Shown piece by piece: positions 127 to 39,054 of a stretch of DNA of 49,109 nt (its first letter is position 1; each line of letters begins with the position of its first letter). The notes under the pieces were generated by a model. The model had not been told where the DNA came from. It was given only the letters and a program-made list of their open reading frames with translations, and did no database searches. A program made the translations under genes and the position numbers. The DNA comes from Lactobacillus sp. UCMA15818. GTDB lineage: Bacteria; Bacillota; Bacilli; Lactobacillales; Lactobacillaceae. The stretch is from the NCBI RefSeq assembly GCF_030400225.1, contig NZ_VJYB01000013.1, positions 1-49,109 of the forward strand, written 5' to 3'.

Positions 127-281
127 AGAGAGGTTAGGTCAAAAGTTAAATTTTGATCTAGCCTCTCTATTTGTTTCGTATAAACATATTTCATAAGTCA
201 AAATTCTCCGTCTAACTTCGAATTACTCATAGCAAAGTACTCGCTATGAGTAATTTCGAGCTAATATTTCCTCTTTACGGT
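127..281 (+). repeat. Intergenic repeat element, copy A (terminator-like hairpin plus near-palindrome)
   Basis: Positions 127-144 pair with 151-168 in an uninterrupted 18-bp stem (two G-U pairs) around the loop GTTAAA. A T-rich stretch follows, so this part can act as a plus-strand intrinsic terminator. Positions 190-281 hold the second module, in which GAATTACTCATAGC (about 220-233) pairs with GCTATGAGTAATTTC (about 243-257). The same two-module order recurs at 3543, 12605 and elsewhere. This copy lies between the window edge and the 3' end of the convergent P-type ATPase gene. Confidence 0.8.
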
Positions 282-290
282 ACAGATGAG

Positions 291-2930
291 TTATCTATGG
301 AGTTTACGCTGAAATAGTTTTACGATTTCAACAATTACGATCATTAACACACCACCACTTAACACTATTAACCATTGTTCTAGGGCGAGTGGGGTAACTT
401 TGAAGACGTCGTTGAATGCCGGAATGAAAATCGTTGCAAACAAAAGTATGCCTGAGATAACAATCGACCAATTAAACATTTTATTTGAAAATAAATTTTT
501 GTTGAAAATAGAACCATGAATTGATTTAGAATTAAAAGCATGAAACAGTTGAATTAATCCTAAAGTTGCAAAAGCCATGGTCAAAGCATCAGCATGTATC
601 AAATCATATGAGTTATGGAAAGGATACTTGATGGCTATCCAGTACACGCCAAGAGTTAATATTCCCTCCAGCAATCCTTGGTAGGTAATACTAGAGAGAA
701 CTCCATCGCCAAAGAAACTCGACTTAGCGCCCCTAGGCTTTCTTTGCATAATCGTAGTTTCAGCTTTTTCGATTCCAAGTGCAATGGCAGGAAAAGTGTC
801 TGTTACGAGATTGATCCAAAGAATTTGTGCTGGGGCAAAGATATCCCAGCCGAGCATCGTCATAAAGAAGAGAGTTAGAACTTCACCTAAATTAGCAGAA
901 AGAAGGTACTGAATGGCCTTTTGAATGTTTGCGAAAACCTTGCGTCCTTCTTTGACAGCAACAATAATGGTTGCAAAATTATCATCAGCTAGAACAATAT
1001 CACTAGCATTTTTAGAAACTTCAGTACCGGTTATACCCATCCCGACCCCAATATCAGCTGTTTTCAAAGCAGGAGCATCGTTGACGCCATCTCCTGTCAT
1101 CGCTACAATTTTTCCTCTCTTCTGCCATGCCTTAACAATTCTAACCTTATGTTCAGGTGCAACTCTAGCATAAACTGAATACTTATCAACTGCAGAATTC
1201 AGCTCGTCAGTTGATAGTGCATCTAGATCATTACCAGTAATGACAGCATCAGTTTGAGAAGCCGTAATTATCCCTAAGCGAACTGCAATCGCCGTAGCAG
1301 TATCCTTATGGTCACCAGTTATCATTAATGGTCTGATTCCTGCTGAACGAGCTTGTGCAACAGCGTCTTTAACCTCTGGACGTTCAGGATCAATCATTCC
1401 CACCATCCCAACAAAAATTAAATCTTGTTCGAGTAGTTGTGAGGAAGGCTCATTTGGAATACTATCTAGTGGTCGATATGCAAAACTTAAAACACGTAAA
1501 GCTTTATGCGCTAGATCATGGTTTGCAGCGAGTATTCTTTTGCGGTCGTTTTCAGTTAAAACAGTTATTTCTCCGTTTTTTTCAATGCGTGTTGTTCGCT
1601 GCAATAATTCATCAACAGCACCTTTTATGAACAACACAGGTTTATCTGCCTGTTTTATTACAACAGACATCAGTTTTCGCTCAGAATCAAAGGGAATTGC
1701 CGCAACTCGTGGGAAGTCTTTTTCAATTTGCGAGACATGATTTGATTTATCAAGATTGTATTGAATCAAAGCCGTTTCAGTGGGATCACCGATTAACCCA
1801 GTGTCGCTTTTTTGGCTATCATTGGCTAAAATCATGGCTTTCATTAAGTTGTTCAGATCAATTTGTGCACTATTGGCATCAGTCAAGGTGTTGTTTTGAT
1901 ATATTTTTTCGACTGTCATTTTGTTCTGAGTCAAAGTACCAGTTTTGTCTGATGCAATGATCTCTGTAGTTCCAAGCGTTTCAACGGCCGGCAGTTTTCT
2001 AATCAATGCATTACGTTTAGCCATGGTTTGTGTCCCAAGTGCAAGCGTAATTGTTACAATTGCTGGCAGCCCTTCAGGAATTGCTGCAACTGCAAGCGAA
2101 ATTGATGTTAACAACATTTCTAAGATTGAAGCACGATCAGCTAATATTCCGATAATAAAAACCAGCAGTGCAATCGCCAAAACTAAAACACTTAGAATCT
2201 TGCTCAGATGTACAATGCTTTTTTGAAGTGGAGTGGTTGTCTGATCAACATTGTTGAGCATTGTTGCAATGTGGCCAACTTCTGTGTTCATGCCGGTTGC
2301 AATAACTACCGCTTCTGCCGTCCCATAGGTAACGTTGGTGTTCATATAGCCAAGATTCTTTCGATCACCTAGTGGAATTTCAGCCTCAGGGATACTAGTT
2401 ATGTTTTTATTTACAGGTACAGATTCACCAGTCAATGCGGCTTCTTCGACTTGCAGAGAAGAAGTGCTGATGAATCTAACATCGGCAGGGATGATATCAC
2501 CTGCTTCTAATAAAATAATATCGCCAGGTACTAAATTTACACTCTTAATAGTTGTGATTTGATTATTTCGTCGTACCTTTGAAGAGGGGGTTGTCATTTC
2601 TTTTAATGCATCAATTGCATTCTCCGCCTTTGCTTCTTGAAATACACCAAATGCAGCATTTAAAACAATTACCAAGAAAATAATTAAGGCATCTGAAATA
2701 TCACCGGCAAAAGCAGCGATAAGAGCAGCAACCATTAATATGATAATCATTAGATCTTTAAATTGAGCTATGAATTTTTGAAACAAGGAACTCTTTTTTT
2801 GTTCAGTGAGCGTGTTTTGTCCGTATTGACCCAATCTCTTGTTTGTCTCATCCAAGGAAAGACCTGTAGTGTTTGTATCTAATAAATTTAATGCCTTTTC
2901 AACAGAAAGCTGGTGATATTTTTGGTTCAT
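291..2930 (-). CDS. P-type cation-transporting ATPase, Ca2+-type (PMCA/SERCA-like, P2A)
   Basis: An 879-residue integral membrane ATPase predicted to export Ca2+ (or a related divalent cation) using ATP. The N-terminal cation-ATPase domain (about 5-75) precedes TM pairs, the actuator motif TGES (about 168), the P2A ion-binding segment PEGLP in M4 (about 285), the phosphorylation site DKTGT (Asp328), and the hinge motif GDGVNDAP. The C-terminal membrane domain has [15 protein letters not shown]. The order and length match bacterial LMCA1/YloB-like pumps. An ATG 21 nt further upstream is possible, but the chosen start has AAGGGA about 12 nt ahead and begins with the usual N-terminal sequence. 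The gene is monocistronic and convergent with repeat copy A. The substrate is inferred from family motifs; Mn2+ is an alternative. Confidence 0.9.
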
Positions 2931-3096
2931 TAAGCATGACAATCCCTTCATATTTTATAGTTTAAATGTATCATGCTTCACGGTGTTAAGAAAGAAATAA
3001 CGATTATAAAATGTGATAAGAGAGAAGTTTAAATAGTTGAAAAAATATATGCATATTGGTACATTTAAAGTAATTTCATATTAGGGGTGTTTAGAA

Positions 3097-3471
3097 TTGA
3101 TTAAAGAGTTTAAAGAGTTTATTTCACGAGGAAATGTGATTGACTTAGCTGTCGGTGTTATTATTGGTGGTGCTTTTACGTCAATTGTTAAGTCATTGGT
3201 TGATTACTTAATTAATCCTTTTATTGGCTTGTTTATTGGAGGAATTGATTTTTCAGAATTAGTGTTCAAGATTAACGGAGCAACGTTCAAAATAGGTAGT
3301 TTTATTAACGCAATTATTAATTTCTTGATTATTGCCTTTGTGGTGTTCTTATTGGTTAAGTTTGTTAATAAATTTTTGATTCGTAAGAAGGAGGAAGTTG
3401 TACCTGTTGCTGCTCCTGAAGTTAAACTCCTGGAAGAAATTCGTGATCTATTAAAAACACAGGAAAAATAA
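3097..3471 (+). CDS. mscL: Large-conductance mechanosensitive channel MscL
   Basis: A 124-residue channel subunit that opens under membrane tension to release solutes during hypo-osmotic shock. The N-terminal amphipathic segment [20 protein letters not shown] is the family hallmark. TM1 (about 15-45) is glycine-rich, and TM2 (about 67-92) is followed by a charged C-terminal helix ([21 protein letters not shown]). The start is TTG, with AGGGG nine nt upstream; no ATG fits the conserved N-terminus. Length is typical for the family. The gene stands alone, divergent from the P-type ATPase and followed by repeat copy B. Confidence 0.96.
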
Positions 3472-3542
3472 TATAAATTAAAAGTAAGAGAGATATGGCA
3501 ATAATTTTGAATTATGAGATACGTTTTTATATGCAAACAAAT

Positions 3543-3713
3543 GGAGCTGGGTCAAAAGTTAAATTTTGATTCAGTTCCTCTATTTATTCCGTATAAACGT
3601 GTTTCATAAGTCAAAATTCTCCGTCTAACTTCGAATTACTCATAGCAAAGTACCTGCTATGTTCGTAATTTCGAGTTAGTACTCAAATTTTCCCGATTTA
3701 TGGCACACTCTCT
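3543..3713 (+). repeat. Intergenic repeat element, copy B
   Basis: The first module (3543-3578) is a 15-bp continuous stem with loop GTTAAA followed by a T-rich run. Its outer pairs differ from copy A yet still pair. The second module (3604-3713) is a near-palindrome: CATAGC pairs with GCTATG at the centre, and the outer arms (TTCATAAGTC near 3604 and the complement of GATTTATGGCA near 3696) also pair. It lies about 70 nt downstream of mscL and in the same direction. Confidence 0.85.
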
Positions 3714-3803
3714 TTGGGTTGTGCAAGTGATAATTATGGATTAGGTAAGGATGATTTGTTTTAAAACAAAGCTCAAAATTAAATGTCACATAAATTAGTA
3801 TCA

Positions 3804-5639
3804 TTAGATTTCTGCAGTAAGAAAGGTATTTAAAAATTCACAGATGCCATTGAAACCTAATTCTCCGCGAAATTGATTAAGTTCTTTACCGCTTCTATAA
3901 GCCGAAACTACTGGGGTTCCCAAGATATGAAGTCTGGTTGTAATCTCTTGATTTTTATCAACATCAAGATAATATGTTTCAAATTGATTGTTGAACTTTT
4001 CAGAGACTGCTTTTTTCAGTAGCGGATGGACTATGCGACAGTGAGAACAACGCTCCGCTCCGAACATTATGATTTTAACTTTATCGGTATTTTTGTTGTT
4101 TAAGATTTGATTTGTAAATTCTTCCTGGGTAATTTCAGGGAAAATGTTGCGGTCAATTGTAAATAATTGTTGATTTTTCTTTTTAGCGGTTACTTGATTG
4201 GATTCATCAATTGTTGCGACACACAAGGCAACGTCTTTATAGTAAGGTAAGGTACCAGCAACAGCAACAATCTTTTTTGCACCTTTTTTTCCGGCATTTG
4301 GCAATCTAAAAGTAGAAATGTCAGGTGGTTGAATTGATATTTCGTGCGGCTTTGGTTCTTGTGGCACATAATCATATGGGTAACGATAAGCGCGGTAAAT
4401 CATATTGTTCTTTAGTTTACCATCATTATTATGTGAAAAATAAGGTGAAATCCATTCCCAGACAATTTCATAGTCATTAGTGAGTTCAATAATTCTGCCG
4501 TCAGATCCCTCGTTAATCAGAGTATTGCCATTTGGTAATCGTTGGACATTTGAAACATAAGGACTATAGAATTTGCTACTGTCAGTTGGCATTTGATAAC
4601 CAAAATCAGCAGGGGTAACCGACCACACAATTTTCATTGCAACAGGATCGATTTCGAGAATTCGGCTATAGTCTCGGAGTGCATTTTTTGAACCATCTAA
4701 GCTACCAGGATTAGGAGTACCGTAGCCAGCCCAGCCACCATTGTCAAATAATAGTAGGTTTCCAGCTCCAGGTAATCCACGGGGAATCATGTGTAGAGCG
4801 TGCTGCCCAATGATTTGACCAATTGCTTGTGCTTTAGGATCATGTATATAATCAGGACCTAACTTCCAGACAATTTTGCCGGTATCATGATCAACGATGA
4901 ATAAAATATTTGCTTCTCTGCTGTCCATGATAATATTATCTGGCTTAAATCGCTGGTCTCCTCGATCAAACCATTTATTTTCTCCCAGATAGCTGGCACA
5001 ATTAGTATGCATGAAATCACCAACACCACCATCAGATTGACGCATATTTGGATTTCTTGTCAAAATATTTTTGGCAGCTTCATCAAAATCAAATTCAGCA
5101 AAGTGTTCTGCTACGCTCCAGCTCCATAATAAGTTACCTTGCCAATCAACTTCGTAAACAATATCATCCAACAATTTTTTGTCAGAGATTACTGAATTAT
5201 GAATTGTTTGATGGGCTAATATTAAAGTTTTCCCTGAGTCTACCTTTGGTTGTTCTAATGGTGAATAATAGACAGCCTGGCCTTCACGCTGAAAATCGTG
5301 ATGCTGTCGTGCCATCCAGCGATGATCGTATCCTGGGTCGTCAATCTTTTCAAAATGATCGAATTGCCATTCAATATTGCCATCGTAATCAACTTGAACA
5401 AGATTAATTCCATCTTGCATCCCATGAACTGGGTGCCGGTTGCCAGAATTTCCAATAATATGCCCATTGGGTAGCATTTTAGGGGGCATTCCGCGAAAAA
5501 TCCAGCGTCTTACCTCATTACCATTCATATCAAATAATAATATGCCATCGTTAATTGTTGGTACTAAGGTATAGCCATTCCAAGCTTTATCAGGATTATA
5601 GCAAATTGTTCCAGTTGGATATATAGATGGTTGTCCCAT
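3804..5639 (-). CDS. Arylsulfotransferase (ASST)-like protein fused to a thioredoxin domain
   Basis: A 611-residue protein without signal peptide, so predicted cytoplasmic. Residues about 10-430 resemble the arylsulfotransferase beta-propeller family, with repeated D-x-x-G-N-x-x-W blades (DYDGNIEWQF, DWQGNLLWSW, DTGKIVWKLG) and His/Asn-rich loops such as GQHALHMIPRG and FDNGGWAGYG. Residues about 515-611 form a thioredoxin fold with the redox motif CSHC (first Cys at residue 531) and the cis-proline motif GTPVV. The ATG is preferred over a GTG nine nt upstream because AAGGAG lies eight nt before it, whereas the same RBS abuts the GTG. It is the last gene of a four-gene operon behind an ABC importer of sulfonate/taurine/nitrate type. 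Whether it transfers sulfate groups is inferred from family resemblance only; a non-catalytic propeller is possible. Confidence 0.8.
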   Translation of the reverse strand: MGQPSIYPTGTICYNPDKAWNGYTLVPTINDGILLFDMNGNEVRRWIFRGMPPKMLPNGHIIGNSGNRHPVHGMQDGINLVQVDYDGNIEWQFDHFEKIDDPGYDHRWMARQHHDFQREGQAVYYSPLEQPKVDSGKTLILAHQTIHNSVISDKKLLDDIVYEVDWQGNLLWSWSVAEHFAEFDFDEAAKNILTRNPNMRQSDGGVGDFMHTNCASYLGENKWFDRGDQRFKPDNIIMDSREANILFIVDHDTGKIVWKLGPDYIHDPKAQAIGQIIGQHALHMIPRGLPGAGNLLLFDNGGWAGYGTPNPGSLDGSKNALRDYSRILEIDPVAMKIVWSVTPADFGYQMPTDSSKFYSPYVSNVQRLPNGNTLINEGSDGRIIELTNDYEIVWEWISPYFSHNNDGKLKNNMIYRAYRYPYDYVPQEPKPHEISIQPPDISTFRLPNAGKKGAKKIVAVAGTLPYYKDVALCVATIDESNQVTAKKKNQQLFTIDRNIFPEITQEEFTNQILNNKNTDKVKIIMFGAERCSHCRIVHPLLKKAVSEKFNNQFETYYLDVDKNQEITTRLHILGTPVVSAYRSGKELNQFRGELGFNGICEFLNTFLTAEI

Positions 5640-5689
5640 ATGATTCACTCCTTAACTTTTTTAATATCGTAATAAATTAAACTTCAGTA

Positions 5690-12604: not shown

Positions 12605-12772
12605 GGGGGGTGGGTCAAAAGTTAAATTTTGACTCAATCCTCCTGTTTTATTTCGGATAAACGTGTTCCATAAGTCAAAATTCTTCGTCTAACTTCGAAT
12701 TGCTCATAGCAAAGGACCTGCTATCTTAGTAGTTTCGCGTTAGTACTCATATTTTCCTGACTTATGTCACAA
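12605..12772 (+). repeat. Intergenic repeat element, copy C
   Basis: The first module (12605-12642) pairs around loop GTTAAA with one mismatch. Its outer stem sequence differs from copies A and B. The second module (12667-12772) starts TTCCATAAGTCAAAATTC and ends GACTTATGTCACA, again a near-palindrome with central CATAGC/GCTATC arms. It follows the YkuD-fold gene in the same orientation. Confidence 0.85.
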
Positions 12773-12845
12773 CTTCCTTCCTGTTTTTATATCTAAAATT
12801 AGTAAGGCTGTGGGGAGTCAAAAGATAGGCTGAAAATTTTGGTGA

Positions 12846-16056: not shown

Positions 16057-16156
16057 GCTGAGTCAAAATTCTCCGGATGACTTCAAATTATTTATGGCCA
16101 AATGCGCATGATGCTTGTAATTTTGAGCATTACCAACCTATACCACACTCCTTTCT
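16057..16156 (+). repeat. Intergenic repeat element, copy D (second module only)
   Basis: AGTCAAAATTCTCCGGATGA is followed by TTCAAATTATTTATGGC and later GTAATTTTGAGC and ACCACACTCCTTTCTT. It aligns with the second module of copies B and C. No GTTAAA hairpin precedes it. It lies 15 nt downstream of the hypothetical gene stop, in the same direction. Confidence 0.65.
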
Positions 16157-21808: not shown

Positions 21809-21845
21809 TAATTTTATCAGTAATCTCAGGGTAAAAATGATATGA

Positions 21846-21882
21846 GTTGGGTCAAAAGGTAACTTTTGATGCGGCTTTTTTT
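21846..21882 (+). terminator. Intrinsic terminator after prs, sharing the repeat core
   Basis: TCAAAAG (21852-21858) pairs with CTTTTGA (21863-21869) around a GTAA loop, with outer pairs and seven T's after. The core resembles the first module of the dispersed repeat, but no second module follows. Confidence 0.8.
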
Positions 21883-22716: not shown

Positions 22717-24042
22717 ATGCATGCGACGAATCGAGATATATCAGAAAGTGATTTAGAAGAATTTCAAAAAGAATATGGTAAGTCAAAAATCGAGCGGGTT
22801 GTTGCACGAGCAGTACAGAAGAATGGGATAGCGGCAACAAGTGAAGACTATGAAGCACAAAAAAATTTAGTCCGTGTTTTTTCTTTAGAGCTGGAGACTG
22901 GGAAGGCTTCCAATCAGAAAAATAGCGGCAGATGCTGGCTGTTTGCGACTCTTAATACAATGAGACAGCAGTATGCAGTTAAATATAAAGTTAAGGATTT
23001 TGAATTATCAGAAAATTATAATTCTTTTTATGATCGTTTAGAGAAAGCAAATCATTTCTATGAGAGTGTGATTACAACTGCTTCATTGCCTTTTTCTAAT
23101 AGGACCGTTAAGAATTTATTTGATTTTCCGGATGATGATGGCGGTCAGTGGGCCAATTCAGCAGCTTTAGTTGAAAAATATGGGGTGGTTCCAAAAGCTG
23201 CCATGCCGGAAACATTTAATAGTGAGAAAACTAGTGAGGTTTCGGAAGTACTAGCACGAAAACTTAGAAAAGATGGGGTTTCTTTAAGGAAACTAATTGC
23301 TGAAGGTAAGACTGATAAGATGCTTGAGACTACAAAAAAAGGTTTTTTGGCAGAAATTTATCGAATACTGGTTTATGCCTTTGGCGAACCACCAGTAAAC
23401 TTTGATTTTGAATACCGAAATGATGATAAACAATATTTTAATGATCGAAATATAACGCCAAAAGAATTTTTTGAGAAGTACTTTGAGTGGGATTTTGCAG
23501 ATTATGTTTGCCTTTCAAATGCACCAGATCATAAATTAAATGAATTATATGAGTTGCCGAGTCAAGGTTATATTCATACGGGGCTTCAAGTTACTTTTGC
23601 TAACACAATGATTGATTCTTTAAAAACGGCAACAATTGCCCAGCTAAAAGATGGTGAAGCTGTGTGGTTTGGTAGTGATGTTGGTAAGGATAGTAATCGT
23701 AAGCTGGGCGTTTTGTCGGCTAAACTATATAAGAAAAGTGAGCTTTTTGATATCGATTTGAATCTTAGTAAGTCTGATAGATTGCGGACAGGTGATGGAA
23801 CTGTTTCGCATGCGATGGCAATTGTTGGGGTTGATATTGTTGAGGGAACTCCTATCAAATGGAAAGTTGAGAATAGTTGGGGTGATAAGTATGGTGAAAA
23901 GGGTTATTTCATAATGAGCGATGATTGGTTTGAGCAGCATGTGTATGAGGTAATCGTAAAGAAACAATACTTAAATGAGAACGACGGCAAAATTTTGAGT
24001 AAGCAGGCTATTAAGATGGATCCATGGGACTCGTTAGCATAA
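22717..24042 (+). CDS. pepC: C1B cysteine aminopeptidase (PepC/PepE/PepG, bleomycin hydrolase family)
   Basis: A 441-residue cytoplasmic papain-like peptidase that trims peptides imported during growth on protein. The triad is Cys73 (QKNSGRCWLFATLN), His365 (VSHAMAIVGVD) and Asn386 (KVENSWGD). The protein ends in PWDSLA; the C-terminal arm of this family reaches into the active site and sets aminopeptidase versus endopeptidase behaviour. Several segments (DGGQWANSAALVEKYGVVPKA) are shared by PepC and PepE/PepG, so the exact paralogue is uncertain. An intrinsic terminator lies 11 nt downstream. Confidence 0.88.
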   Translation: MHATNRDISESDLEEFQKEYGKSKIERVVARAVQKNGIAATSEDYEAQKNLVRVFSLELETGKASNQKNSGRCWLFATLNTMRQQYAVKYKVKDFELSENYNSFYDRLEKANHFYESVITTASLPFSNRTVKNLFDFPDDDGGQWANSAALVEKYGVVPKAAMPETFNSEKTSEVSEVLARKLRKDGVSLRKLIAEGKTDKMLETTKKGFLAEIYRILVYAFGEPPVNFDFEYRNDDKQYFNDRNITPKEFFEKYFEWDFADYVCLSNAPDHKLNELYELPSQGYIHTGLQVTFANTMIDSLKTATIAQLKDGEAVWFGSDVGKDSNRKLGVLSAKLYKKSELFDIDLNLSKSDRLRTGDGTVSHAMAIVGVDIVEGTPIKWKVENSWGDKYGEKGYFIMSDDWFEQHVYEVIVKKQYLNENDGKILSKQAIKMDPWDSLA

Positions 24043-24094: not shown

Positions 24095-24102
24095 TTTCCA
24101 CA

Positions 24103-24402
24103 ATATTTGTAATTGATTGTTAGTGCTCGAAGCTTCCCGACTTTCAACACTCTTCTTCTTAACGAGTTTATGAAAGCCAAGCTACTGCGCCTAACTCCAA
24201 TTACTAATAGCTAAAAAGCAAGCATATTTGTAATTGATTGTTAGTGCTCGAAGCTTCCCGACTTTCAACACTCTTCTTCTTAACGAGTTTATGAAAGCCA
24301 AGCTACTGCGCCTAACTCCAATTACTAATAGCTAAAAAGCAAGCATATTTGTAATTGATTGTTAGTGCTCGAAGCTTTCCAGCTTTCAACACTCTTCTTC
24401 TT
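24103..24402 (+). repeat. Tandem 121-bp repeat, about 2.5 copies, related to the dispersed element
   Basis: The unit starts ATATTTGTAATTGATTGTTA at 24103, 24224 and 24345, so the period is 121 bp. The first two units are nearly identical and the third is partial with a few changes (TTTCCAGC for TTCCCGAC). Within a unit, CTAACTCCAATTACTAATAG and TTTCAACACTCTTCTT align with the second module of the dispersed repeats. It fills the gap between the C1B peptidase terminator and rexB. Confidence 0.9.
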
Positions 24403-24446: not shown

Positions 24447-27400
24447 ATGGGCTTGAGCTTTATCTTAGGAAGTGCAGCAAAAAATCATCAAAGTGAGTTA
24501 GTTGAACAAATTGTTAGGTTAAAAAAAGAAAAAAGAGTTAAGAACATCTATATTTTAGTTCCCAATCATATTAAGTTTGCCTCGGAGATTGCAATTTTGC
24601 AGAAATTACGCGTGGCTTTTGGACGAAAAGGGGAGGTCTTTGCCCAAAGTTCAGTTCAAATTCTCTCATTTTCAAGATTAGCATGGTTTTTTTTGAAAGA
24701 TAGCGCGATTTATCAGAAGCCAAGACTTTCTAACGCAGGATTAAACATGTTAGTTTTAAATATTTTAGAGGAGCAAAAGAATAAATTAACTATTTTTAAA
24801 GGTGAACAAGCACAATCAGGTTTTGTAAGTGAAGTTGTTGCACAACTTGATGAATTTAGTAAAGGACGGATTAATAGTCAAGACTTGGCTTTTTTGGCTG
24901 AACAAACTAATAATCAAAGTGACTTATATGCTAAATTAAAAGATTTACAAATAATCTATCAAGAGTATGAAAAGAAATTAATTGGAAAGTATTTAGATAA
25001 TAGCCAGCTATTACAGGCATTAACGGAAAAAATAGCTGAAACTAATTTAGAAGATAGTTGCTTTATAGTAACTGGTTTTTCTCAATTCACAGCTAGTGAG
25101 AACAAATTAGTTGAGGCAATGATGAAAAAAGCTAAGGAAGTATATATCGATTTGGTACTAGACGAGCGGCAGAAATATGCTAGTCCGAGAAAGGAATCTA
25201 TTTATTACCGCTCTAACAAATTATATGTAAGCCTTATTGCGTATGCTGCGCAGAATCAGATAATCAGCAATAATATTGTGATTGCTGATGAACGTGTTAA
25301 AACACCAATTCTCTTAGATTTGGAAAGATATTGGACAAAGGTAGAGGGACAACACACTGAATTGAAGACGGCAGCGGTTCAAGAAGGGCTGGACATTTTT
25401 TCTGCTAACAATCGTTACCTTGAGATTGAAGAAGTTGCGACTCGAATCAGGCATAGTGTAATAAATGAGGGATATCGATATAGTGATTTTATAATATTGA
25501 CCCGTCATTTAGACTTATACCGCAATATAATTGCTCCGGTTTTTGCACAATACCATCTTCCGTTTTTTATTGATCTCCAAAAAAAGATGACGGATCATCC
25601 TTTTGTTGAATTTATAGCTGCATTATTTGCAGTGAAAAAGCATTATTATCGCTATGATGATGTGATGAGACTATTAAAAACAGAACTATTGTTACCGAAA
25701 GTAGACGGGAAAAGCCTAACAAGTAAGAAGTATCGGGAATATCTTGATTTGACGGAAAACTTAGTCTTAAAATTTGGTTTTGACGGAAAAAGTTGGCTAC
25801 GCGAAGATGATTGGATTTACTATCGCTTTTTTGAAGGAGATACAGGAACTCAGACAGATAAAGAAGTTGAAATCTCTCGAAAAGTAAATATTATTCGTAA
25901 TTTAATAAAAACAACACTTCCTCCCTTTTTTGAAAAAATGAAAAAGGTAAAAAACGGACGCGAAGCTGCACAAGCTCTCTGTCAGTTTTTAACTGAAACA
26001 GGCATCTCTAATGAATTATTGAACTGGCGCGATAAAGCAATTGAACAAGGAAATATTGCAGAAGCAGCTAAACCTGAAGAAACGTGGAATACCTTTTGTG
26101 GGCTATTGGATGAATATGTTGAATTATTGGGAGAACATAAATTTGATGAGGACCAATTTGTTGAGATACTACAAACAGGCTTCGAAGGTGCTGAATATAG
26201 CCAGGTACCTTCTACTTTAGATCAAATTATTGTTTCTGAGAGCGGGATGGTACAGATGAACGACCGGAAGATTACTTTTTTAATCGGTGCTACAGATGCA
26301 GTGATGCCAGACAGAATTAGTAATAGTAACATTATTTCTGATGAGGATCGAACATACTTAAGCCCGGCTTTAACTGAAGAACAGTACCTGAATGATGATA
26401 CACTAAATCAATTGGCTGCTGAACCATTTCTAAGTTATCTAGCATTTATGAGTTCTTCAGATAAATTATACTTGTCTTATCCACTGGCTGACGATGCCAA
26501 AGAAAGTCTGAGAGTGTCTCCTTATGTGACACAAATTGCTAATCATTATGGAATCAAATTAGATTTAAAAACACATGAACCACAAATAACTGATTCAAAC
26601 AAATATGTTTTAAAACATTATGTGGGAACAAGGAAAACAACAATTAAGAAATTATTGATGGTCCTTAGGCAATCGAAAATGCAGGAACAGCAAGTCCCTG
26701 ATATTTGGATTGAAATCCATAATTTCTTGAACGAGGATGGTCAAGAACGGGAATTTATGAATCAAATTTTGGCGAGCTTGAGTTATCAGAATATTCCTGA
26801 AAAATTAAAACCTGAGCTTGTTGATTTGTTATATGGAAAAACAATAAACACTTCAATATCTAAGTTAGAAGAGTTTTATGCAAATGAATATGCTTATTTC
26901 TTGAAGTATGGATTGAAATTACAAGAAAGAAGTATTTTTGAATTATCTGCAGCCAATACAGGAGAATTCTTTCATTTAGCAATGGATTCATTGGTAAAGA
27001 TGTTGAAAGCAGAGAATATTCGTTTACCGGAGATAACTGTGGAACAGCTCATGAAGAAAATTAGGATTATCACGGAGCAAATCCGCCAGTTACCTCAATT
27101 CCAAATTTTGAATAGTACACAAAGAATGCAGTATCTAGCAAGACAATTGGATGCAACGGTGCTGCAAGTAGCAAGGGCAATGCAGAAACAACAAGAAAGA
27201 AGTAACACACAGATTATTCAGACAGAAGTGTTGTTTGGTCATGTGGGGACTGAAAATGGTCTTGCTCCATTGGAATTTAAGTTGGAAAATGAACGCAAGG
27301 TTAATGTACGTGGAAAGATTGATCGATTAGATCAGATTCTCGCAGGTAATACGAACTATGTTGGAATTGTAGATTACAAGTCAAGTTCGCATATTTTTGA

Positions 27401-32663: not shown

Positions 32664-33110
32664 ATGTTTCCAGAACAATTAAAAGCGTTACGCAGGGGAA
32701 GCGGGTTAACGCTTTCGCAATTGGCAAGACAGTTAAATGAAATGAATATAGATGATGAATTAAAGACACATCCCAATTCTGGACCGCAGATTGGGAGCTG
32801 GGAACGCGGTATTAATACACCTTCCTATTCTGAAGTTATGAAATTGGCGATTTTTTTTGGAGTATCACTAGACTTCATAGTGGGGAGAGTCAATCAGCAA
32901 ATTGATATTGAAAAGATGTTTACTTTAAATAATGATTTAGTCTTTGATGGAAAGCAATTATCAGGTAGAGATCGTGCCGAAAGCTATAGCATTTTAAAAG
33001 CATATTTTATCGGTAAGAGTTTAACAACTCTGCATGGTTCCGATAATAAAGAGAGCAAGAGTTACAAGGAGATTACACTTAGTTTTAGTGATAGAAAATC
33101 GACCGATTAG
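32664..33110 (+). CDS. XRE-family helix-turn-helix regulator
   Basis: A 148-residue DNA-binding protein with an N-terminal HTH_3 domain (about 1-72: LKALRRGSGLTLSQLARQL, then IGSWERGINTPSYSEVMKLA and FFGVSLDFIVGR). The loop between helices 1 and 3 is longer than usual (NEMNIDDELKTHPNSGP). The C-terminal half (about 80-148) is not recognised and could be an effector or oligomerisation region. AGGAGGG precedes the ATG. It is divergent from the hydrolase, a possible target, and 84 nt upstream of the TerC-family gene. Confidence 0.85.
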   Translation: MFPEQLKALRRGSGLTLSQLARQLNEMNIDDELKTHPNSGPQIGSWERGINTPSYSEVMKLAIFFGVSLDFIVGRVNQQIDIEKMFTLNNDLVFDGKQLSGRDRAESYSILKAYFIGKSLTTLHGSDNKESKSYKEITLSFSDRKSTD

Positions 33111-33194
33111 TGCCTTGAATGGCAGTTTAATTATAAATTATAATATGTTAAAATGAAGTTAAATTAATAAAATCAGCTGCAGGAGGGCTCTTTG

Positions 33195-33917
33195 TTGGAT
33201 ATTATTTCTAAATTATATGGTCCATTTTTTAATATTGAGAATTGGAAATTGGTAATTGAATCTGGAAGTGACTGGCTTGTGATTCTATCGCTTGCTTTGA
33301 TTGAGTGTCTGCTTTCGGTAGATAACGCAATCGTGCTTGCTGCGCAGACGAAGGTCTTGCCTACAAAAAAAGAACAAGAGAAATCCCTGTTTTATGGTCT
33401 TTGGGGTGCATATGTGTTCCGTTTTCTGATTATTGGGATAGGGACATACTTGATAAATTTTTGGGAAATCAAGGTAGTCGGTGCGGGGTATTTGCTTTAT
33501 CTAGCACTAGCACATTTTTATCACATGTACCATCCTATTGCCAAGAGGAAAAGGGCAAAAGGCAAGCGGCTATTACCATTATTCTGGTCCGTTGTAATCT
33601 CCATTGAATTGATGGATATTGTATTTTCAATTGATTCTGTATTAGCATCACTAGCAATTTCTTCAAACCCAGTAATTATATTGCTAGGTGGGATGATTGG
33701 TATTTTGTGTATGCGTGGAATTGCCGAAATAATTATCAAACTTATGGAAATCATACCTGAACTTGAGGTAATGGCGTATGCCTTAATCGGATTAATTGCA
33801 GTAAAGCTGTTTGTTTCGATTCCCATGATAGACATTGAAATTCCAGCCCCGTTATTTGCTGGGGTTGTTTTGTTAGCAATTTTTATCACACTTATTATAA
33901 ATCGTGTGAGAAGATAA
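33195..33917 (+). CDS. TerC-family integral membrane protein
   Basis: A 240-residue membrane protein with about seven TM helices. The paired acidic motifs of the TerC family are present: LIECLLSVDNAIVLAAQTK near the N-terminus and IELMDIVFSIDSVLA in the middle. Family members such as Bacillus YkoY/MeeF are implicated in Mn2+ export or metalation of secreted proteins; tellurite resistance is historical. Two consecutive TTG codons begin the gene. The second has AGGAGGG seven nt upstream and is chosen; the first is only four nt away. I see no yybP-ykoY riboswitch in the 80-nt leader. Confidence 0.9.
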   Translation: MDIISKLYGPFFNIENWKLVIESGSDWLVILSLALIECLLSVDNAIVLAAQTKVLPTKKEQEKSLFYGLWGAYVFRFLIIGIGTYLINFWEIKVVGAGYLLYLALAHFYHMYHPIAKRKRAKGKRLLPLFWSVVISIELMDIVFSIDSVLASLAISSNPVIILLGGMIGILCMRGIAEIIIKLMEIIPELEVMAYALIGLIAVKLFVSIPMIDIEIPAPLFAGVVLLAIFITLIINRVRR

Positions 33918-33959
33918 GTAAAAGCGGATTTTAAAATTCAAAGGATTGGTGATTAAAAA

Positions 33960-34775
33960 ATGTATAAGTTAATTGCATGTGATTTAGATGAAACACTTTT
34001 GAACGATCAGAAAAAAATCTCGCCAGAAAATGTTCGAGCAATTAAGAAAGCGGTTGCGCAGGGAGCTTTTTTTGTTCCCAATACTGGACGTAATTTTTTG
34101 ACAGTCCAAGATAATTTACGTGAGCTAGGACTGTATCAACAAGAAAATTCTTATGTGATTTCGTTTAATGGTGGAGCAATTGTTGAGAATCAAGGAAATC
34201 AAATTTTAACAACCAATCTTTTGTCATTTAAAGTCATAAGACAACTTTTTGAGTTAGGTGTGAAAAATAATTACTGTATTCATGTGTACTCACTGGATAA
34301 ACTTTATATTTGGAATATCAATTCCAAAGAAATTAATTATATTTCTGGAAGAGTTGCTCATTGGGAAGAACTGAAAGAAGACAACATTGATGCATTGGCA
34401 GGAACCGAATTGGTAAAGATAATCTTTAATGTACCAACCAAAGCAGAGCGTGAGAAAATAGAAGGGGAGGTTCTAAGGAACATTGATGATTCATTGAATA
34501 TTACTTTTTCATCGGATCGCTATATTGAATTTAATTCTGCAAAAGCTGATAAGGGTCAAGGACTTATTAAACTGGGTAAGATGTTAAATATTGAGGAAGA
34601 CGAAATCATTGCAATTGGAGATAGTGGCAATGACTTAGCCATGATAAAAACCGCGGGTCTGGGGGTTGCTGTTGCAAATGCACATGAATTGATAAAGGAA
34701 AATGCTAATTTTATTACTTCTAATGATAATAACAACAGTGCAGTTGCAGAAGTCATTGAGAAATTCATTCTATGA
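33960..34775 (+). CDS. Cof-type HAD-superfamily phosphatase
   Basis: A 271-residue cytoplasmic hydrolase acting on small phosphorylated metabolites. HAD motif I is DLDETLLNDQ (Asp8 nucleophile), motif II NTGR, the motif III Lys is in NSAKADKGQG, and motif IV is GDSGNDLAMIK. The C2B cap lies between motifs II and III. GGATTGGTG precedes the ATG. The thioredoxin gene starts 18 nt downstream, suggesting cotranscription. Substrate not predictable. Confidence 0.92.
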   Translation: MYKLIACDLDETLLNDQKKISPENVRAIKKAVAQGAFFVPNTGRNFLTVQDNLRELGLYQQENSYVISFNGGAIVENQGNQILTTNLLSFKVIRQLFELGVKNNYCIHVYSLDKLYIWNINSKEINYISGRVAHWEELKEDNIDALAGTELVKIIFNVPTKAEREKIEGEVLRNIDDSLNITFSSDRYIEFNSAKADKGQGLIKLGKMLNIEEDEIIAIGDSGNDLAMIKTAGLGVAVANAHELIKENANFITSNDNNNSAVAEVIEKFIL

Positions 34776-34793
34776 CAACTGAGGGAGTGTAAT

Positions 34794-35108
34794 ATGGTGA
34801 CGGAAATAGTAAGTAAGTCGGATATTCCTAAGGGCTTAGCACTTATTGCTTTTCATGCAGATTGGTGTGGACCATGTCAGATGTTTACACCCGTTTTTGA
34901 AGAATTGGAGAAAAGTTTTGGTAACAAGCTTTTCTTTGGGAGAGTAGATGTTCAAGAAAATCAAAAAATTGCACAGCAGTTTGATGTGCTGAGTATTCCT
35001 TGTACACTCTTATTTGAGAATGGTGTTCCAAAAGAAAAAATTAAGGGTTACAAGCCCTATGGACAGTTCGAAAAGTATCTTAAAAAGAAGTTAGGCGGAG
35101 AATTTTAA
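34794..35108 (+). CDS. Thioredoxin-family protein
   Basis: A 104-residue thiol-disulfide oxidoreductase with the canonical active site FHADWCGPCQMF (Cys29 and Cys32, approximate) and the cis-Pro in LSIPCTLLF. The extra Cys beside the cis-Pro is less common. GAGGGAG precedes the ATG; a GTG codon follows immediately and could also serve. It lies directly after the HAD gene. It may be an accessory thioredoxin rather than the main TrxA, given its short N-terminus. Confidence 0.92.
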   Translation: MVTEIVSKSDIPKGLALIAFHADWCGPCQMFTPVFEELEKSFGNKLFFGRVDVQENQKIAQQFDVLSIPCTLLFENGVPKEKIKGYKPYGQFEKYLKKKLGGEF

Positions 35109-35210
35109 CTTGTGAAGTATGTTTATCCGCAATCGATAGCGGATTGGATTAAAAGCTAAACTTTATACTGATTTCTACTTATCTTTAGTTTAATTTGCAA
35201 ATTTTCTTTT

Positions 35211-35238
35211 TTGTGTCCATACTGACTTTTGTTATAAT
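35211..35238 (+). promoter_or_regulatory. Promoter of the preQ1 riboswitch-queT unit
   Basis: TTGTGT (35211-35216) and a perfect TATAAT (35233-35238) are spaced by 16 nt. Transcription would begin just before the riboswitch stem. Confidence 0.6.
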
Positions 35239-35252
35239 TACAAGTATCATAA

Positions 35253-35297
35253 CGGTGGTTCGCGAAAATCCCACCGGAATAAAAAACTAGAAAGAGG
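35253..35297 (+). promoter_or_regulatory. preQ1 class I riboswitch
   Basis: CGGTGG (35253-35258) pairs with CCACCG (35271-35276). The loop TTCGCGAAAATC and the A-rich tail AATAAAAAACTAG fit the compact preQ1-I aptamer, in which the tail forms a pseudoknot with the stem-loop. The tail runs into the ribosome binding site AAAGAGG (35291-35297), so ligand binding would hide it: predicted translational repression by preQ1. The downstream gene encodes a queuosine-precursor transporter, which strongly supports this. Confidence 0.88.
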
Positions 35298-35305
35298 TAT
35301 CATAG

Positions 35306-35797
35306 ATGCAAAGTTCACACGAAAAGACAGTGGGAATTATTAAGGCTGGGCTAGTTGCTGCAATGTATGTTGTTTTGACTTTGACAGCTTCGGGATTGGC
35401 ATATGGGCCTATTCAGTTCAGACTTTCAGAGACCCTAAATAATCTTGCTATTTTTAATAAACGCTATATCTGGGCAATCACAATTGGGTGTGTAATCGCC
35501 AATTTATGGTCTAATCTTGGGATTACAGATGTTATTTTTGGATCACTAGGCTCACTTATGATGACGTCAATCAGTTATTGGCTTAGTAAATATGCGAAGA
35601 CGACAGCAGGAAAGTTAGCCGTCAGCGTAGTTGTATGTACGGTTTCAATGTGGAGTGTCGCACTGGAACTATATTTGATTAGCCATATCCCCTTTTGGGA
35701 AACATATTTGACGGTTGCGGCTGGAGAGTTAGCTGTATCTGTTTTAGGTGCTGTTATTATTAAGTTAGTTAGTTCAAGAGTAGACTTTAAGAAATAA
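35306..35797 (+). CDS. queT: QueT-family queuosine precursor transporter
   Basis: A 163-residue membrane protein with about five TM helices, the S component of an ECF-type importer for queuosine precursors such as preQ1. QFRLSETLNNLAIF and GCVIANLWSNLGITDVIFGS are characteristic of QueT. AAAGAGG lies eight nt before the ATG, within the riboswitch expression platform. The ECF energising module is not in the window. It is followed by a perfect 15-bp terminator hairpin. Confidence 0.95.
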   Translation: MQSSHEKTVGIIKAGLVAAMYVVLTLTASGLAYGPIQFRLSETLNNLAIFNKRYIWAITIGCVIANLWSNLGITDVIFGSLGSLMMTSISYWLSKYAKTTAGKLAVSVVVCTVSMWSVALELYLISHIPFWETYLTVAAGELAVSVLGAVIIKLVSSRVDFKK

Positions 35798-35880
35798 ACG
35801 ATAGTGTTTGAAGTATTAAGCGAATTTAAAACGCTGAGATAGTAGAACATGACAAAAGATTTTTGCTTATATTTGAATAA

Positions 35881-35968
35881 CTAGCGAGGCTTGGCCAAAA
35901 GTTATATTTTAGCCAAGCCTCGCTAGTTATTTCTTAATAAACGTGTTTCATAAGTTAAAATTCTAGTT
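35881..35968 (+). repeat. Intergenic repeat element, copy F (terminator hairpin plus truncated second module)
   Basis: CTAGCGAGGCTTGGC (35881-35895) and GCCAAGCCTCGCTAG (35912-35926) form a perfect 15-bp stem over a CAAAAGTTATATTTTA loop region, followed by TTATTTC. After it come AATAAACGTGTTTCATAAGT and AAAATTCT, matching the start of the second module of copy B, which then breaks off at the stop codon of the convergent VOC gene. It can end transcription of queT and, lacking a good T-run on that side, less well the minus-strand gene. Confidence 0.85.
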
Positions 35969-36332
35969 AGTGTTGATAGACGGCAATTTCAATAATATTA
36001 TCATCATAGTCTTTGATTCTAATAGCAGTCATTTTTCCAGAAGCTCCAACCTTCTCGCTTGGTTCATTGAGGACAGGAACATAGTAGCTGGCCAAGTGAT
36101 TCAATACGTCTTCCATAGGTGTGCTTGCTACGATACAGAAACTAACACGTTGGCTGCTGCTGGTTGCAGAAGGCACTAACTGTAATTCTAGTAGCTGGTG
36201 GCCACAATGCATAACTGCTTTTTCAGCATTCTCAGAGATGATAGGCATGTCAAAAACCTCGTGATAGAAGCGTACGGCACGTGAGATATTGGAAACGTTC
36301 AAAACAAGATAATCAATTCTTTTGATATTCAT
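35967..36332 (-). CDS. VOC-superfamily (glyoxalase/bleomycin resistance-like) protein
   Basis: A 121-residue single VOC module. The start NIKRIDYLVLNVSNISRAVRFYHEVFDMP is typical (first 20: NIKRIDYLVLNVSNISRAVR). A central GHQLLELQ and the C-terminal DYDDNIIEIAVYQ provide the usual metal-ligand positions of the beta-alpha-beta-beta-beta fold. The ATG lacks a clear ribosome binding site. An upstream in-frame TTG (36365) would add 11 residues and also lacks one, whereas AAAGGAAG lies further up at about 36406, out of useful range. The start is therefore uncertain. Function within the superfamily unknown. Confidence 0.78.
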   Translation of the reverse strand: MNIKRIDYLVLNVSNISRAVRFYHEVFDMPIISENAEKAVMHCGHQLLELQLVPSATSSSQRVSFCIVASTPMEDVLNHLASYYVPVLNEPSEKVGASGKMTAIRIKDYDDNIIEIAVYQH

Positions 36333-36448
36333 ACGAGTTGCTAAACGAAGGAACCTAGTACCCAATGCATTGCTAGATGAATCGACGTCTTGAGCAACTT
36401 CACTTCCTTTCTATGTTATTAAATAGCATTCCTCACAGATAGATTATA

Positions 36449-37765
36449 TCATGCAAAATTCTGCGTAAGGATGTTTCGCAGAAAAAGAGTACCAAAAAGG
36501 GCAACAATCAGTTCGGTAAAAGGAACACTTAGCCAAACCCCTGTTATGCCAAATAGGTAACCAAAGATGATAATAGTGGGTAGTAAAATCAGATAACCGC
36601 GAAGCAGCGATATGAAAAATGATAGGCGCGGTTGATTGATAGAAACAGAAAAAAGCATGATATTTATATTGATTCCTGAAAAAAAGAGACTTAGAAAATA
36701 AAGAGGAATACCATAACTAGCATATGTTACCAATAAGTTATTATGTTCGTTATTAAAAATATTAATGACAGGATATTTAAAAATAATTAAAAATAAATAA
36801 CCAACTAAAGCAATTGCAGAGCAGGTGATCAGACTAGCATAGAGTATCTTGTGTACATGTTCCCAGTTGTTTTTGCCATACTCACGAGCAACGAGCGGCT
36901 GCATTCCGAATGAGACACCGTTGAAGAAAGCCAGAACAATGATACCAATATTAGCAATTACTCCATAAGCTGCAACTTCATAATTACCGCCCAATCTTAG
37001 TAGAACGATGTTAAAAACGAAGATACTAATGCCTGTACTTAGTTCTGTTAGTAAGGAGGGAAATCCAAGCCTGATAACAGATTTTACTAGAACAAAATTT
37101 GGCATTCTCAATTTTAATCTAAGGTTTCTTGCAGGAAAAAAGCGATGATTTGTGAGAATTGCAAGACTTGTCAAGGGGGCGATGAGTGTTGCAAATGCAG
37201 CACCATTCATCCCCAATCCAAATGTAAAGACTAAAAGGTAATCGGCAATTACCACTACACCAGTTTCAGATAAGGTAGCAATCATTGTTAACTTGGGATT
37301 ACCATCATTTCTAATAAAATTAACTGAAATATAGTTTGCAATGAAGAGCGGGGCTGAAAGAGAAATGATTCTGAGATAGGGTGCAGCCACAGCAATTGTC
37401 TGTGAATTTGCTCCCATCAAATATAAAAGCTGATTGGTGAATAGATTTGCAATAATTACAAAAAAAATTCCAACCAAAATTCCTAGGATGAGCAATTGAC
37501 CGTACAACGAAATAGTATTATTCAAGTGTCTTTCTTTGTTCATAGAGTAAATCGTTGCGCCGCCAATTCCAAGCAGCAAACCAACAGAACTAAAAAGATT
37601 AAAAATGGGGAGAACAATGTTTAAAGAAGCTAGTCCAATTGCACCAGCAGCGAGCGCAATAAATAAAGTATCAACAATCACATATAGTGAAAGCCCTAGA
37701 GATGCAAAAATATTTTTAAGCGTATAATTTGCAAATTCTTGAATAATTGTCGTTTTTGATCCCAA
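36449..37765 (-). CDS. MATE-family efflux transporter
   Basis: A 438-residue membrane protein with about 12 TM helices, predicted to export drugs or metabolites in exchange for Na+ or H+. The N-terminal segment (LYVIVDTLFIALAAGAIGLA, then LNIVLPIFNLFSSVGLLLGI) and the repeat-half start (IRLGFPSLLTELSTGISIFV) match MatE domains. The TTG start has AGGAG nine nt upstream; no ATG fits. It follows a minus-strand terminator hairpin, so it is probably transcribed alone. Substrate unknown. Confidence 0.9.
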   Translation of the reverse strand: MGSKTTIIQEFANYTLKNIFASLGLSLYVIVDTLFIALAAGAIGLASLNIVLPIFNLFSSVGLLLGIGGATIYSMNKERHLNNTISLYGQLLILGILVGIFFVIIANLFTNQLLYLMGANSQTIAVAAPYLRIISLSAPLFIANYISVNFIRNDGNPKLTMIATLSETGVVVIADYLLVFTFGLGMNGAAFATLIAPLTSLAILTNHRFFPARNLRLKLRMPNFVLVKSVIRLGFPSLLTELSTGISIFVFNIVLLRLGGNYEVAAYGVIANIGIIVLAFFNGVSFGMQPLVAREYGKNNWEHVHKILYASLITCSAIALVGYLFLIIFKYPVINIFNNEHNNLLVTYASYGIPLYFLSLFFSGININIMLFSVSINQPRLSFFISLLRGYLILLPTIIIFGYLFGITGVWLSVPFTELIVALFGTLFLRNILTQNFA

Positions 37766-37911
37766 TGGACAAATCTCCTAACAATGATTATTTCAAATTC
37801 AGTAAATCCAGGGGTTAAATGATAAGGTTGTGTTTTTGAAGCTTCCTCTGCTGTGAAAATAATCTTTGTCTGCAAGAAGGTTCAAAGCAAAGTCATATTA
37901 TAATCATAAAA

Positions 37912-37956
37912 GGACCTCCTAAGTTAGATTTTTGTCCAACTTGAGGGGGTCACTAT
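37912..37956 (-). terminator. Minus-strand terminator hairpin after the prolyl aminopeptidase gene
   Basis: Read on the minus strand, GACCCCCTCAAGTT pairs with AACTTAGGAGGTC around an unpaired loop, followed by CTTTT. The stem has one bulge. It separates pip from the MATE gene. Confidence 0.6.
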
Positions 37957-37979
37957 CTGTAATGGAACGCACACCTGCT

Positions 37980-38894
37980 CTATTTTTTCGATTCCGGAAA
38001 ATGATGGCTTTCAACATCAACAAGAAATTGTTCCAAATGTTTAAAATAGACAGGAGCATTATCAATCATGTGATGATGCCCACCATTGGGAGTTGTTTCC
38101 AGTCTAGCATTTGGAATAGTTGCAGCCATTCGCTTAGCTGTTTCAAGCGGCATTGTTTCATGTTCACCATAAGTGATTAGTGTGGGCATCTGTAGTTTAT
38201 GAATGTCGTTTCTACGATCCCAGCCCTTCATTTTACCCGTGACAACAAATTCATTGTCACCTTGGAAATAATTATAGACAGGTGTAGCCATTGTATCTGT
38301 TAAATGTGAGATTGCTGGTGGCTGCTTACGGTCAACGTATCCCTGGTTTAATTTATCAATTAGAGATTGATAACGCTCGTTAGCATAGTTGTTTTCAGAT
38401 TCACACTTTTTCATGAAAGCAAGATCGACATCTGAAAATTCTTTTTCGCGAATCTTATTAACATTAGTTACATACTCTTCGATATTATCGGTCATACTAG
38501 AAATGATGATTCCCTTTAGGTGTTCAGGGTACTTAAGAGCATATTCTTGTGTTAAGATTCCTCCCCATGATTGGCCAATCAGGTAAAAGTCTTCTAAGCC
38601 AAGCTTTATTCTGACTTCTTCTACTTCATCTATAAAGTAGTCCATATTTAGAAATTTATCGATGTTTTCCTGAATACTAAAGTCTGGTTGATCTGAGTAC
38701 CAAGAGCCTAATTGATCATACATGGTTACCTGAACACCAAGCTTTGCTAATTTACTAGCAAAATTTTCGTAATACTCGTGGTTACCACCAGGGCCGCCAT
38801 GAAGGCAAAGTAATTTGATTTTTCCTTTACCTTCTGTATGGGTCCAAAGATGATAACCATTATCTAATGTAAGAATAGTAGTTCCTTGTTTCAT
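37980..38894 (-). CDS. pip: Proline iminopeptidase (prolyl aminopeptidase, S33)
   Basis: A 304-residue alpha/beta hydrolase that removes N-terminal proline from peptides (PepI in lactobacilli). LCLHGGPGGNHEYYENFA is the S33 oxyanion motif, the nucleophile is Ser109 in GQSWGGILTQ, the acid lies in the ITYGEHETMPL region, and the His is in GGHHHMID. MYDQLGSWYSDQPD is shared with Lactobacillus PepI. The gene lies just downstream of pepX on the same strand, separated by a degenerate repeat copy. Both complete proline-peptide breakdown. Confidence 0.93.
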   Translation of the reverse strand: MKQGTTILTLDNGYHLWTHTEGKGKIKLLCLHGGPGGNHEYYENFASKLAKLGVQVTMYDQLGSWYSDQPDFSIQENIDKFLNMDYFIDEVEEVRIKLGLEDFYLIGQSWGGILTQEYALKYPEHLKGIIISSMTDNIEEYVTNVNKIREKEFSDVDLAFMKKCESENNYANERYQSLIDKLNQGYVDRKQPPAISHLTDTMATPVYNYFQGDNEFVVTGKMKGWDRRNDIHKLQMPTLITYGEHETMPLETAKRMAATIPNARLETTPNGGHHHMIDNAPVYFKHLEQFLVDVESHHFPESKK

Positions 38895-38946
38895 TAATAT
38901 ACACCCGATTTCTTTATCAATAATTTAATCATACCACCATGAGCAG

Positions 38947-39054
38947 AGAGTGTGGCATAGATTGGTAAAATTTGGATACTAACTTGAAATTGCGAACATA
39001 ACGGTCCTTGCATAAATAAAGCAAACAAATTAGAATTTAACGTCTGATTCAGCT
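38947..39054 (-). repeat. Intergenic repeat element, degenerate minus-strand copy G
   Basis: Read on the minus strand it begins AGCTGAATCAGACGTTAAAT, matching the first module of copy B (AGCTGGGTCAAAAGTTAAAT). After a deletion it resumes with TTATGTTCGCAATTTCAAGT and ends CTATGCCACACTC, the 3' half of the second module. It follows pepX, in the pepX direction, and its first nucleotides overlap the last codons of pepX. Confidence 0.75.

Follow-up and report, generated by a model that had tools for sequence, protein, structure and literature searches.

The window analyzed here is an entire contig of 49,109 nt (NZ_VJYB01000013.1, C5 in our numbering) of Lactobacillus sp. UCMA15818, whose genome (G000) comprises 2,576,500 bases in 46 contigs. 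It harbors a dispersed intergenic repeat, for which the original prediction had listed the copies A, B, C, D, F, and G, most of them behind named genes. All six copies were found near the listed positions by an iterated nhmmer profile, and Pfam agreed with the neighbors named there (mscL, YkuD, QueT, and PepX). The two-module anatomy was also confirmed. A full copy has a length of about 170 bp and consists of a hairpin of 36 nt (M1), a T-rich spacer, and a near-palindrome of about 110 nt (M2). In G000, the termini of the element are GGRRCTGGGTC... and ...GRCACACTCYC. Table 1 includes four entries that were missing from the first list, namely the lone M1-like hairpin, the M2 tandem array, and the two antisense copies starting at 35087 and 48921. 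It also includes the end of an insertion sequence (IS) of the IS1182 family. The antisense copy at 35087 overlaps the last 22 bp of a thioredoxin-like gene (34794–35108, plus strand) and extends past the gene end, and copy G in its originally predicted bounds overlaps the last codons of pepX. At the right end of the window, the IS end abuts a decayed M2 directly, where the hairpin module of this copy would be expected. The last 17 bases of the nhmmer match to this copy belong to the IS end.

Table 1. Members of the repeat family and the IS end in the window; columns refer to the nhmmer model.
Feature	Position	Strand	Support
Copy A: M1 hairpin and most of M2, M2 3' end diverged	127–281	+	nhmmer 130–268, E 3e-36
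Copy B: full-length, GGAGCTGGGTC...CACACTCTC, flanked by mscL (+) and a convergent gene on the minus strand	3543–3712	+	nhmmer E 9e-51, columns 1–166
Copy C: full-length, downstream of the YkuD gene	12606–12775	+	nhmmer 12606–12771, E 3.5e-44
Copy D: M2 only	16057–16156	+	nhmmer 16060–16144, columns 66–162, E 4e-9
Lone M1-like hairpin, weak, may be an ordinary terminator	21845–21880	+	nhmmer E 0.009
M2 tandem array without M1 (one partial and two longer units, period about 121 bp), between a Peptidase_C1-like gene (22717–24042) and the gene at 24447	24098–24392	+	nhmmer E 5e-5, 2e-13, 5e-12; sequence
M1 remnant and first half of M2, antisense	35087–35164	-	nhmmer E 6e-11, columns 12–90
Copy F: M1 and start of M2, downstream of queT	35881–35968	+	nhmmer 35886–35964, E 2e-13
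Copy G: decayed M1 and end of M2, downstream of pepX	38947–39054	-	nhmmer 38950–39011, columns 103–166, E 1.5e-7; M1 part by eye
First part of a decayed M2, antisense, following the gene 48196–48849 (+); M1 position taken by the IS end	48921–48982	-	nhmmer 48921–48999, columns 20–97, E 5e-6
IS1182-family IS, cut off by the contig end after its first 127 bp; the 19-bp terminal repeat GGGGCTGTGCCATAAGTCC is perfect	48983–49109	+	blastn 88% identity to IS positions 1–127, E 7e-40

The repeat has a strong predicted secondary structure. The folding energy of copy B was -56.3 kcal/mol compared to -23.9 ± 3.6 kcal/mol for shuffled sequences (z -9.1), and none of 200 shuffles was equally stable. We aligned 13 copies, three from G000, one from a plasmid, and one each from nine other genomes. 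M1 was the most variable part of this alignment, yet pairing was retained in 88.5% of its cells. Changes on both sides of a pair were seen for 5 of the 15 M1 pairs and for none in the M2 helices. The covariation score across all pairs was matched by none of 500 shuffles, an excess that kinship of the copies can also produce without structure. On the element strand, at least 5 T are present in the 10 nt behind M1 in all 41 full copies of G000. The structure and the two-sided changes are consistent with M1 acting as a transcription terminator. The Rfam scan of the window gave no match above the gathering score.

As the original prediction had suggested, the search was extended to the rest of the genome and to relatives, here with the nhmmer profile. 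Loci, positions, and orientations were counted over 849,109 bases of G000 (positions 1–400k of both C1 and C12, and the window). The 200 raw rows collapsed to 105 non-redundant loci at E ≤ 1e-2, partial ones included; 42 of these are near full-length, and 88 remain at E ≤ 1e-5. Extrapolation to the whole genome gives about 320 loci. Since loci consisting of M1 only are possibly ordinary terminators, not all of them can be counted as copies. An earlier first-look search of the same genome had given 263 candidates, 40 of which were scored, with 45 matches at 84–100% identity. Among the 60 genomes searched, the repeat was matched in 10 of 13 other members of the genus, and the 46 more distant genomes gave one weak match. 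Liquorilactobacillus hordei and L. nagelii carry it on plasmids as well (85% identity). From kinship and from the matches in named species, the genus of the window is inferred to be Liquorilactobacillus. A degenerate pattern of 39 nt retrieved 50 stretches from a contig collection, all from L. satsumensis, L. capillatus, or L. sucicola; an exact 59-nt pattern from the repeat found nothing in this collection, and copy B had no nucleotide match in a phage collection. The 40 scored copies from L. satsumensis were 95–100% alike to one query. Twelve of the flank pairs from this species were identical to flanks in genome G013, which is therefore very probably L. satsumensis.

The original prediction had described a fixed polarity of the copies relative to the upstream genes. 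This was not borne out. Genes for the gap analysis were called by a simple script. When additional copies per gap were merged, 97 of the 105 loci were left, and a usable gap was lacking for three of these. In tandem gaps, the orientation agreed with that of the upstream gene for 31 copies and was opposite for 28 (binomial p=0.80). Before merging, tandem gaps had 36 loci in the same and 28 in the opposite orientation; loci at E ≤ 1e-5 gave 27 and 24, and full-length copies alone gave 16 and 12. Fixed polarity is broken even inside the window, by the two antisense copies behind the plus-strand genes 34794–35108 and 48196–48849. Copy A, on the plus strand, sits about 10–20 bp past the 3' end of a gene on the minus strand (291–2951) and is thus oriented opposite to it. 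The preference for gene ends, in contrast to the polarity, is real. In tandem gaps, 47 of the 59 copies were nearer to the 3' end of the upstream gene than to the 5' end of the downstream gene (p=5e-6). When the count was restricted to full-length copies, this applied to 19 of 28 (p=0.09). Occupancy at E ≤ 1e-5 was 21 of 55 for convergent gaps, 50 of 322 for tandem gaps, and 7 of 62 for divergent gaps (convergent versus divergent, p=0.001).

These counts also remove the premise of the argument that fixed polarity speaks against a miniature inverted-repeat transposable element (MITE), as it fails over the 849 kb. Random orientation, or a match to a known IS-derived MITE with target-site duplications, had been named in advance as findings that would count against the original prediction, and these were largely found: the orientation is random, and the ends are similar to the terminal repeat of an IS in G000 that belongs to the IS1182 family. 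An immobile 3'-untranslated-region (3'-UTR) element, selected by the host in fixed polarity as a terminator, for protection of mRNA ends or as a small RNA, would agree with the strong structure and the position at gene 3' ends. It would also agree with the finding that 28 of the 51 loci on C12 have some family member at the matching place in the related genome G011. The other 23 loci have no family member at that place, however, and this, the ratio of 31 to 28, and ends like those of an IS make such an element highly improbable.

A candidate partner, an IS, was found on a plasmid at a distance of 0.5 kb from a copy of the repeat. This IS encodes a transposase annotated as IS1182, and its terminal repeats of 19 bp (GGGGCTGTGCCATAAGTCC) are perfect. 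NCBIfam likewise assigned the transposase to IS1182 with a match that exceeds the curated cut-off (E 7e-94), and Pfam identified a DDE transposase domain. A whole IS with both terminal repeats and 93% DNA identity to the plasmid IS is present on C3 of G000; its transposase matched over 548 of 548 amino acids at 95% without stops. The terminal repeat agreed with the M2 end of the G000 element (reverse complement) at 16 of 19 positions and with the M1 end at 14 of 19. Of the 11 genomes of the genus that contain the repeat, 10 gave matches to the transposase, many of them just fragments; the three genomes that lack the repeat gave none. Short fragments of the same transposase gene are located at six other contig ends of G000 (C4, C12, C13, C19, C21, and C43). 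Since the window contig and these ends carry pieces of the IS, it probably breaks the assembly of G000, and further copies were probably lost in assembly. We infer that this transposase mobilizes the repeat in trans. The ISL3 family (PF01610) was rejected as a partner: it had two matches in G000, and no repeat-like ends were seen by eye at the longer one.

The insertion of the IS was studied by comparison of G000 with G011, a close relative (85% identity across a 4-kb test region; 86% for G006 and G007). G011 holds many copies of the IS. We fetched 18, of which 17 reach both ends; one broken copy (C3 near 2,232,300) is outside this set. Four of the 18 could be placed on the examined G000 sequence. 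At locus L217, a hairpin of G000 (CCTTAACTG-loop-CAGTTAAGG, -14.3 kcal/mol) lies beside an A/T run; in G011 this hairpin is absent, and the IS stands in its place. At L210, a G000 hairpin of -14.3 kcal/mol is likewise missing in G011, with the alignment ending short of both junctions. The IS thus removed the target hairpin in two of the four placed copies. The other two face a repeat copy with M1: at L222, the MITE in G000 corresponds to the IS in G011, and at L223, M1-M2 in G000 corresponds to IS-M2 in G011. Judged by eye, 5 of the 18 IS copies (L208, L215, L220, L223, and L224) directly adjoin M2 at the expected position of M1. Some IS flanks form inverted repeats, as in AATAAAAAC-IS-GTTTTTATT. 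The score for such repeats, calculated for 17 of the 18 copies without the incomplete L219, had a mean of 3.53 compared to 2.58 in the null, and 27 of 2000 shuffles reached the observed mean.

At L217 and L211 of G011, the IS copies adjoin GGTACCACC-like or GTTACCACC-like motifs, which look T-box-like. Identity as T-boxes was rejected for these two targets, as Rfam gave no match at the gathering score.

We also tested the flanks of the repeat itself. In L. satsumensis, inverted repeats begin at the element ends, for example in AATAAATAAGAG-MITE-CTCTTATTTATT. After removal of five tandem-array copies from the merged set of 50, the mean score of the remaining 45 was 3.40 compared to 2.05 ± 0.20 in the null, and none of 2000 shuffles reached it. 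Seven copies scored 6 or more (null 1.6), and the signal is therefore carried by a minority of the copies. The outward flanks of this species are T-rich on both sides (0.62 in nt 1–8 versus 0.33 in nt 26–60; n=46 with a slightly different filter; 0 of 5000 shuffles). The T-richness was weaker in G003, G000, and L. capillatus, and G003 showed a smaller excess of inverted repeats (n=18; 16 of 2000 shuffles reached the mean). For the L. satsumensis copy L111 we sought an empty site, and the relatives were too divergent at this locus.

Filled sites in G000 were compared with their counterparts in G011. The comparison comprised loci at E ≤ 1e-5 in gaps of up to 700 bp for which G011 has no family member at the corresponding position. 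At 12 of 16 places on C12 with a member in G000 and none in G011, G011 has a terminator-like hairpin. A separate terminator-like hairpin was kept in G000 at 4 of these 12 sites, compared to 28 of 34 control gaps (p=0.003). Stricter cut-offs gave 2 of 9 versus 22 of 27 controls and 2 of 9 versus 16 of 20 controls. When the hairpin of the element itself was counted, 11 of the 12 sites had one. For the MITE, unlike the IS, the evidence for removal of the target hairpin is purely statistical. The original prediction had offered two explanations for the position of the copies, a function in the 3'-UTR or insertion targeted to transcript ends. Targeting was supported by the IS and MITE copies at the places of the relative's hairpins and by the inverted repeats flanking the IS and the L. 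satsumensis copies, while a role of M1 as a terminator is only compatible with the data.

The flanks also bear on the question of whether M1 moves at all. M1 could be an ordinary terminator type of the genus, with M2 alone being mobile and inserting beside it. M1-like hairpins without M2 do exist, sometimes at orthologous places, as do M2 arrays without M1, and terminators with a GCTGTAGCAAAA-like stem occur in genus members lacking the repeat (L174 and L175). Mobility of M2 alone is nevertheless quite unlikely, since the M1 ends are nearly identical among full copies of L. satsumensis at unrelated places and the flanking inverted repeats begin at the outer end of M1. The hairpins at L174 and L175, with a stem like GCTGTAGCAAAA...TTTTGCTACAGC, resemble both M1 and the IS end, which may reflect either mimicry or a shared origin.

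We consider it likely that the repeat is a non-autonomous MITE of about 170 bp, which is mobilized by an IS1272-type transposase of the IS1182 family, replaces hairpins, and brings its own terminator-like hairpin. Its choice of target is probably of the hairpin-replacing kind. The transposase would recognize DNA hairpins, and the element would take the place of a part of the hairpin. Because intrinsic terminators are a common kind of hairpin between genes, copies would accumulate at gene 3' ends, and they would land in both orientations because the target is a roughly symmetrical palindrome. M1, with arms that resemble the IS terminal repeat and a T-rich stretch behind, may serve as the replacement terminator, which would keep insertions near-neutral and permit very many copies. 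As M1 is itself a hairpin, later copies of the IS could replace it in turn. A more far-reaching version of this model is that of a self-spreading terminator: the MITE would swap host terminators for its own hairpin and re-supply termination at very many gene ends throughout the genus, while its hairpin would be a landing site where IS and MITE copies stack instead of hitting genes. We put this forward tentatively and rate its chances slightly below even.

Several results weigh against replacement of hairpins by a mobile terminator. Over all 57 pairs of the alignment, the number of two-sided changes was within that of the shuffles (90 of 500 reached it). On the reverse strand, at least 5 T follow M1 in only 20 of the 41 G000 copies (25 of 30 in G013), and bidirectional termination is therefore doubtful for many copies. 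Only G000 and G011 yielded intact copies of the IS; L. satsumensis, with the clearest flank signal, has only broken pieces of the transposase. As 28 of the 51 C12 loci have a family member at the G011 place, a large share of the family is either old or recurrent at these places. Four of the 12 filled sites retain a separate hairpin, and at two of the 12 the G011 hairpin is itself M1-like; with these two removed, a separate hairpin was kept at 4 of 10 sites (p=0.015; range of p, 0.014 to 0.024). The flanks of the repeat showed no excess of inverted repeats in G000 (n=41; 320 of 2000 shuffles) or G011 (n=5; 1517 of 2000) and no clear excess in L. capillatus (n=8; 134 of 2000) or L. sucicola (n=4; 86 of 2000). 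The IS copy L209 has a direct repeat of 21 bp. In three copies of the MITE (C12:198838, for which G011 has the empty site; C1:219036; and one in G011 near C3:968,000), the T-tract that follows an intact terminator-like hairpin forms a 10-bp direct repeat, and the M2 end faces this hairpin. Replacement is therefore not the sole mode of insertion, and a second mode places the element next to a retained hairpin and duplicates the target. Over all MITE copies, direct repeats showed no clear excess (7 of 200 shuffles reached the mean in G000, more in the other sets).

The 10-bp direct repeats and the lack of inverted repeats at the G000 flanks would be in line with an ordinary MITE, which inserts randomly with target duplication and survives at gene 3' ends since hits in genes or promoters are selected against. 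Random orientation and the depletion in divergent gaps fit such an element as well. It would not be expected, however, to have the inverted repeats and T-rich flanks on both sides that we found in L. satsumensis, to lose native hairpins at filled sites beyond the control, or to have a related IS standing in the place of hairpins. We therefore regard an ordinary MITE as unlikely and favor the hairpin-replacing element.

Related elements are known from other bacteria. REP/BIME sequences, which are linked to REP-associated tyrosine transposases, are high-copy palindromes outside genes; the presumed partner here differs by a DDE transposase domain (Pfam) and terminal inverted repeats. RUP of Streptococcus pneumoniae is an IS-linked MITE, and we know of no link to IS1182 and no hairpin replacement for SPRITE, RUP, or BOX. 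As far as the accessible part of one report goes, these three are high-copy intergenic repeats of S. pneumoniae, with SPRITE resembling Rho-independent terminators (PMC10969869). They belong to another genus and are likened here by description and not by sequence. Hairpin-replacing transposition is, to our knowledge, known mainly from IS1272. The accessible parts of two reports describe that IS1272 and TnSha1, members of the IS1182 family in staphylococci, insert in both orientations into hairpins, several of them terminators confirmed by RNA-seq, and that the hairpin is wholly or partly deleted (PMC5678879, PMC4923244). The likeness to our element thus comprises an IS1182-family transposase, hairpin targets including terminators, both orientations at one terminator, and no fixed target sequence (PMC5678879, PMC4923244). 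Those elements are an IS and a composite transposon, whereas the repeat described here is non-coding, has about 170 bp and very many copies, and carries its own terminator-like hairpin. Some of its copies have 10-bp direct repeats, and the same parts of these reports mention none for new insertions (PMC5678879, PMC4923244). MITEs and targeting of the IS1272 type are therefore already known as kinds; their high-copy, genus-wide combination was not found in our literature search, in which we recognized no paper describing this Liquorilactobacillus repeat.

If the hairpin-replacing reading is correct, terminator sequence in these bacteria would be set partly by a selfish element and not by gradual evolution, and a structure-recognizing transposase would occupy a near-harmless niche. 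The element may show how selfish DNA spreads through many gene ends without obvious damage, and the large number of its filled and empty sites across several genomes represents a natural data set for testing hairpin-replacing transposition. It also cautions that intergenic repeats at gene 3' ends are not necessarily regulatory RNAs.

Two further features of the element were observed. In several copies, GGCTTGACTAAACGTAGG or a near variant is located directly before M1 (109–126 in the window, C1 just before 181120, and L030), and these copies possibly represent a longer form of the element. Arrays of the type M1-M2-M2 are present in L. satsumensis.

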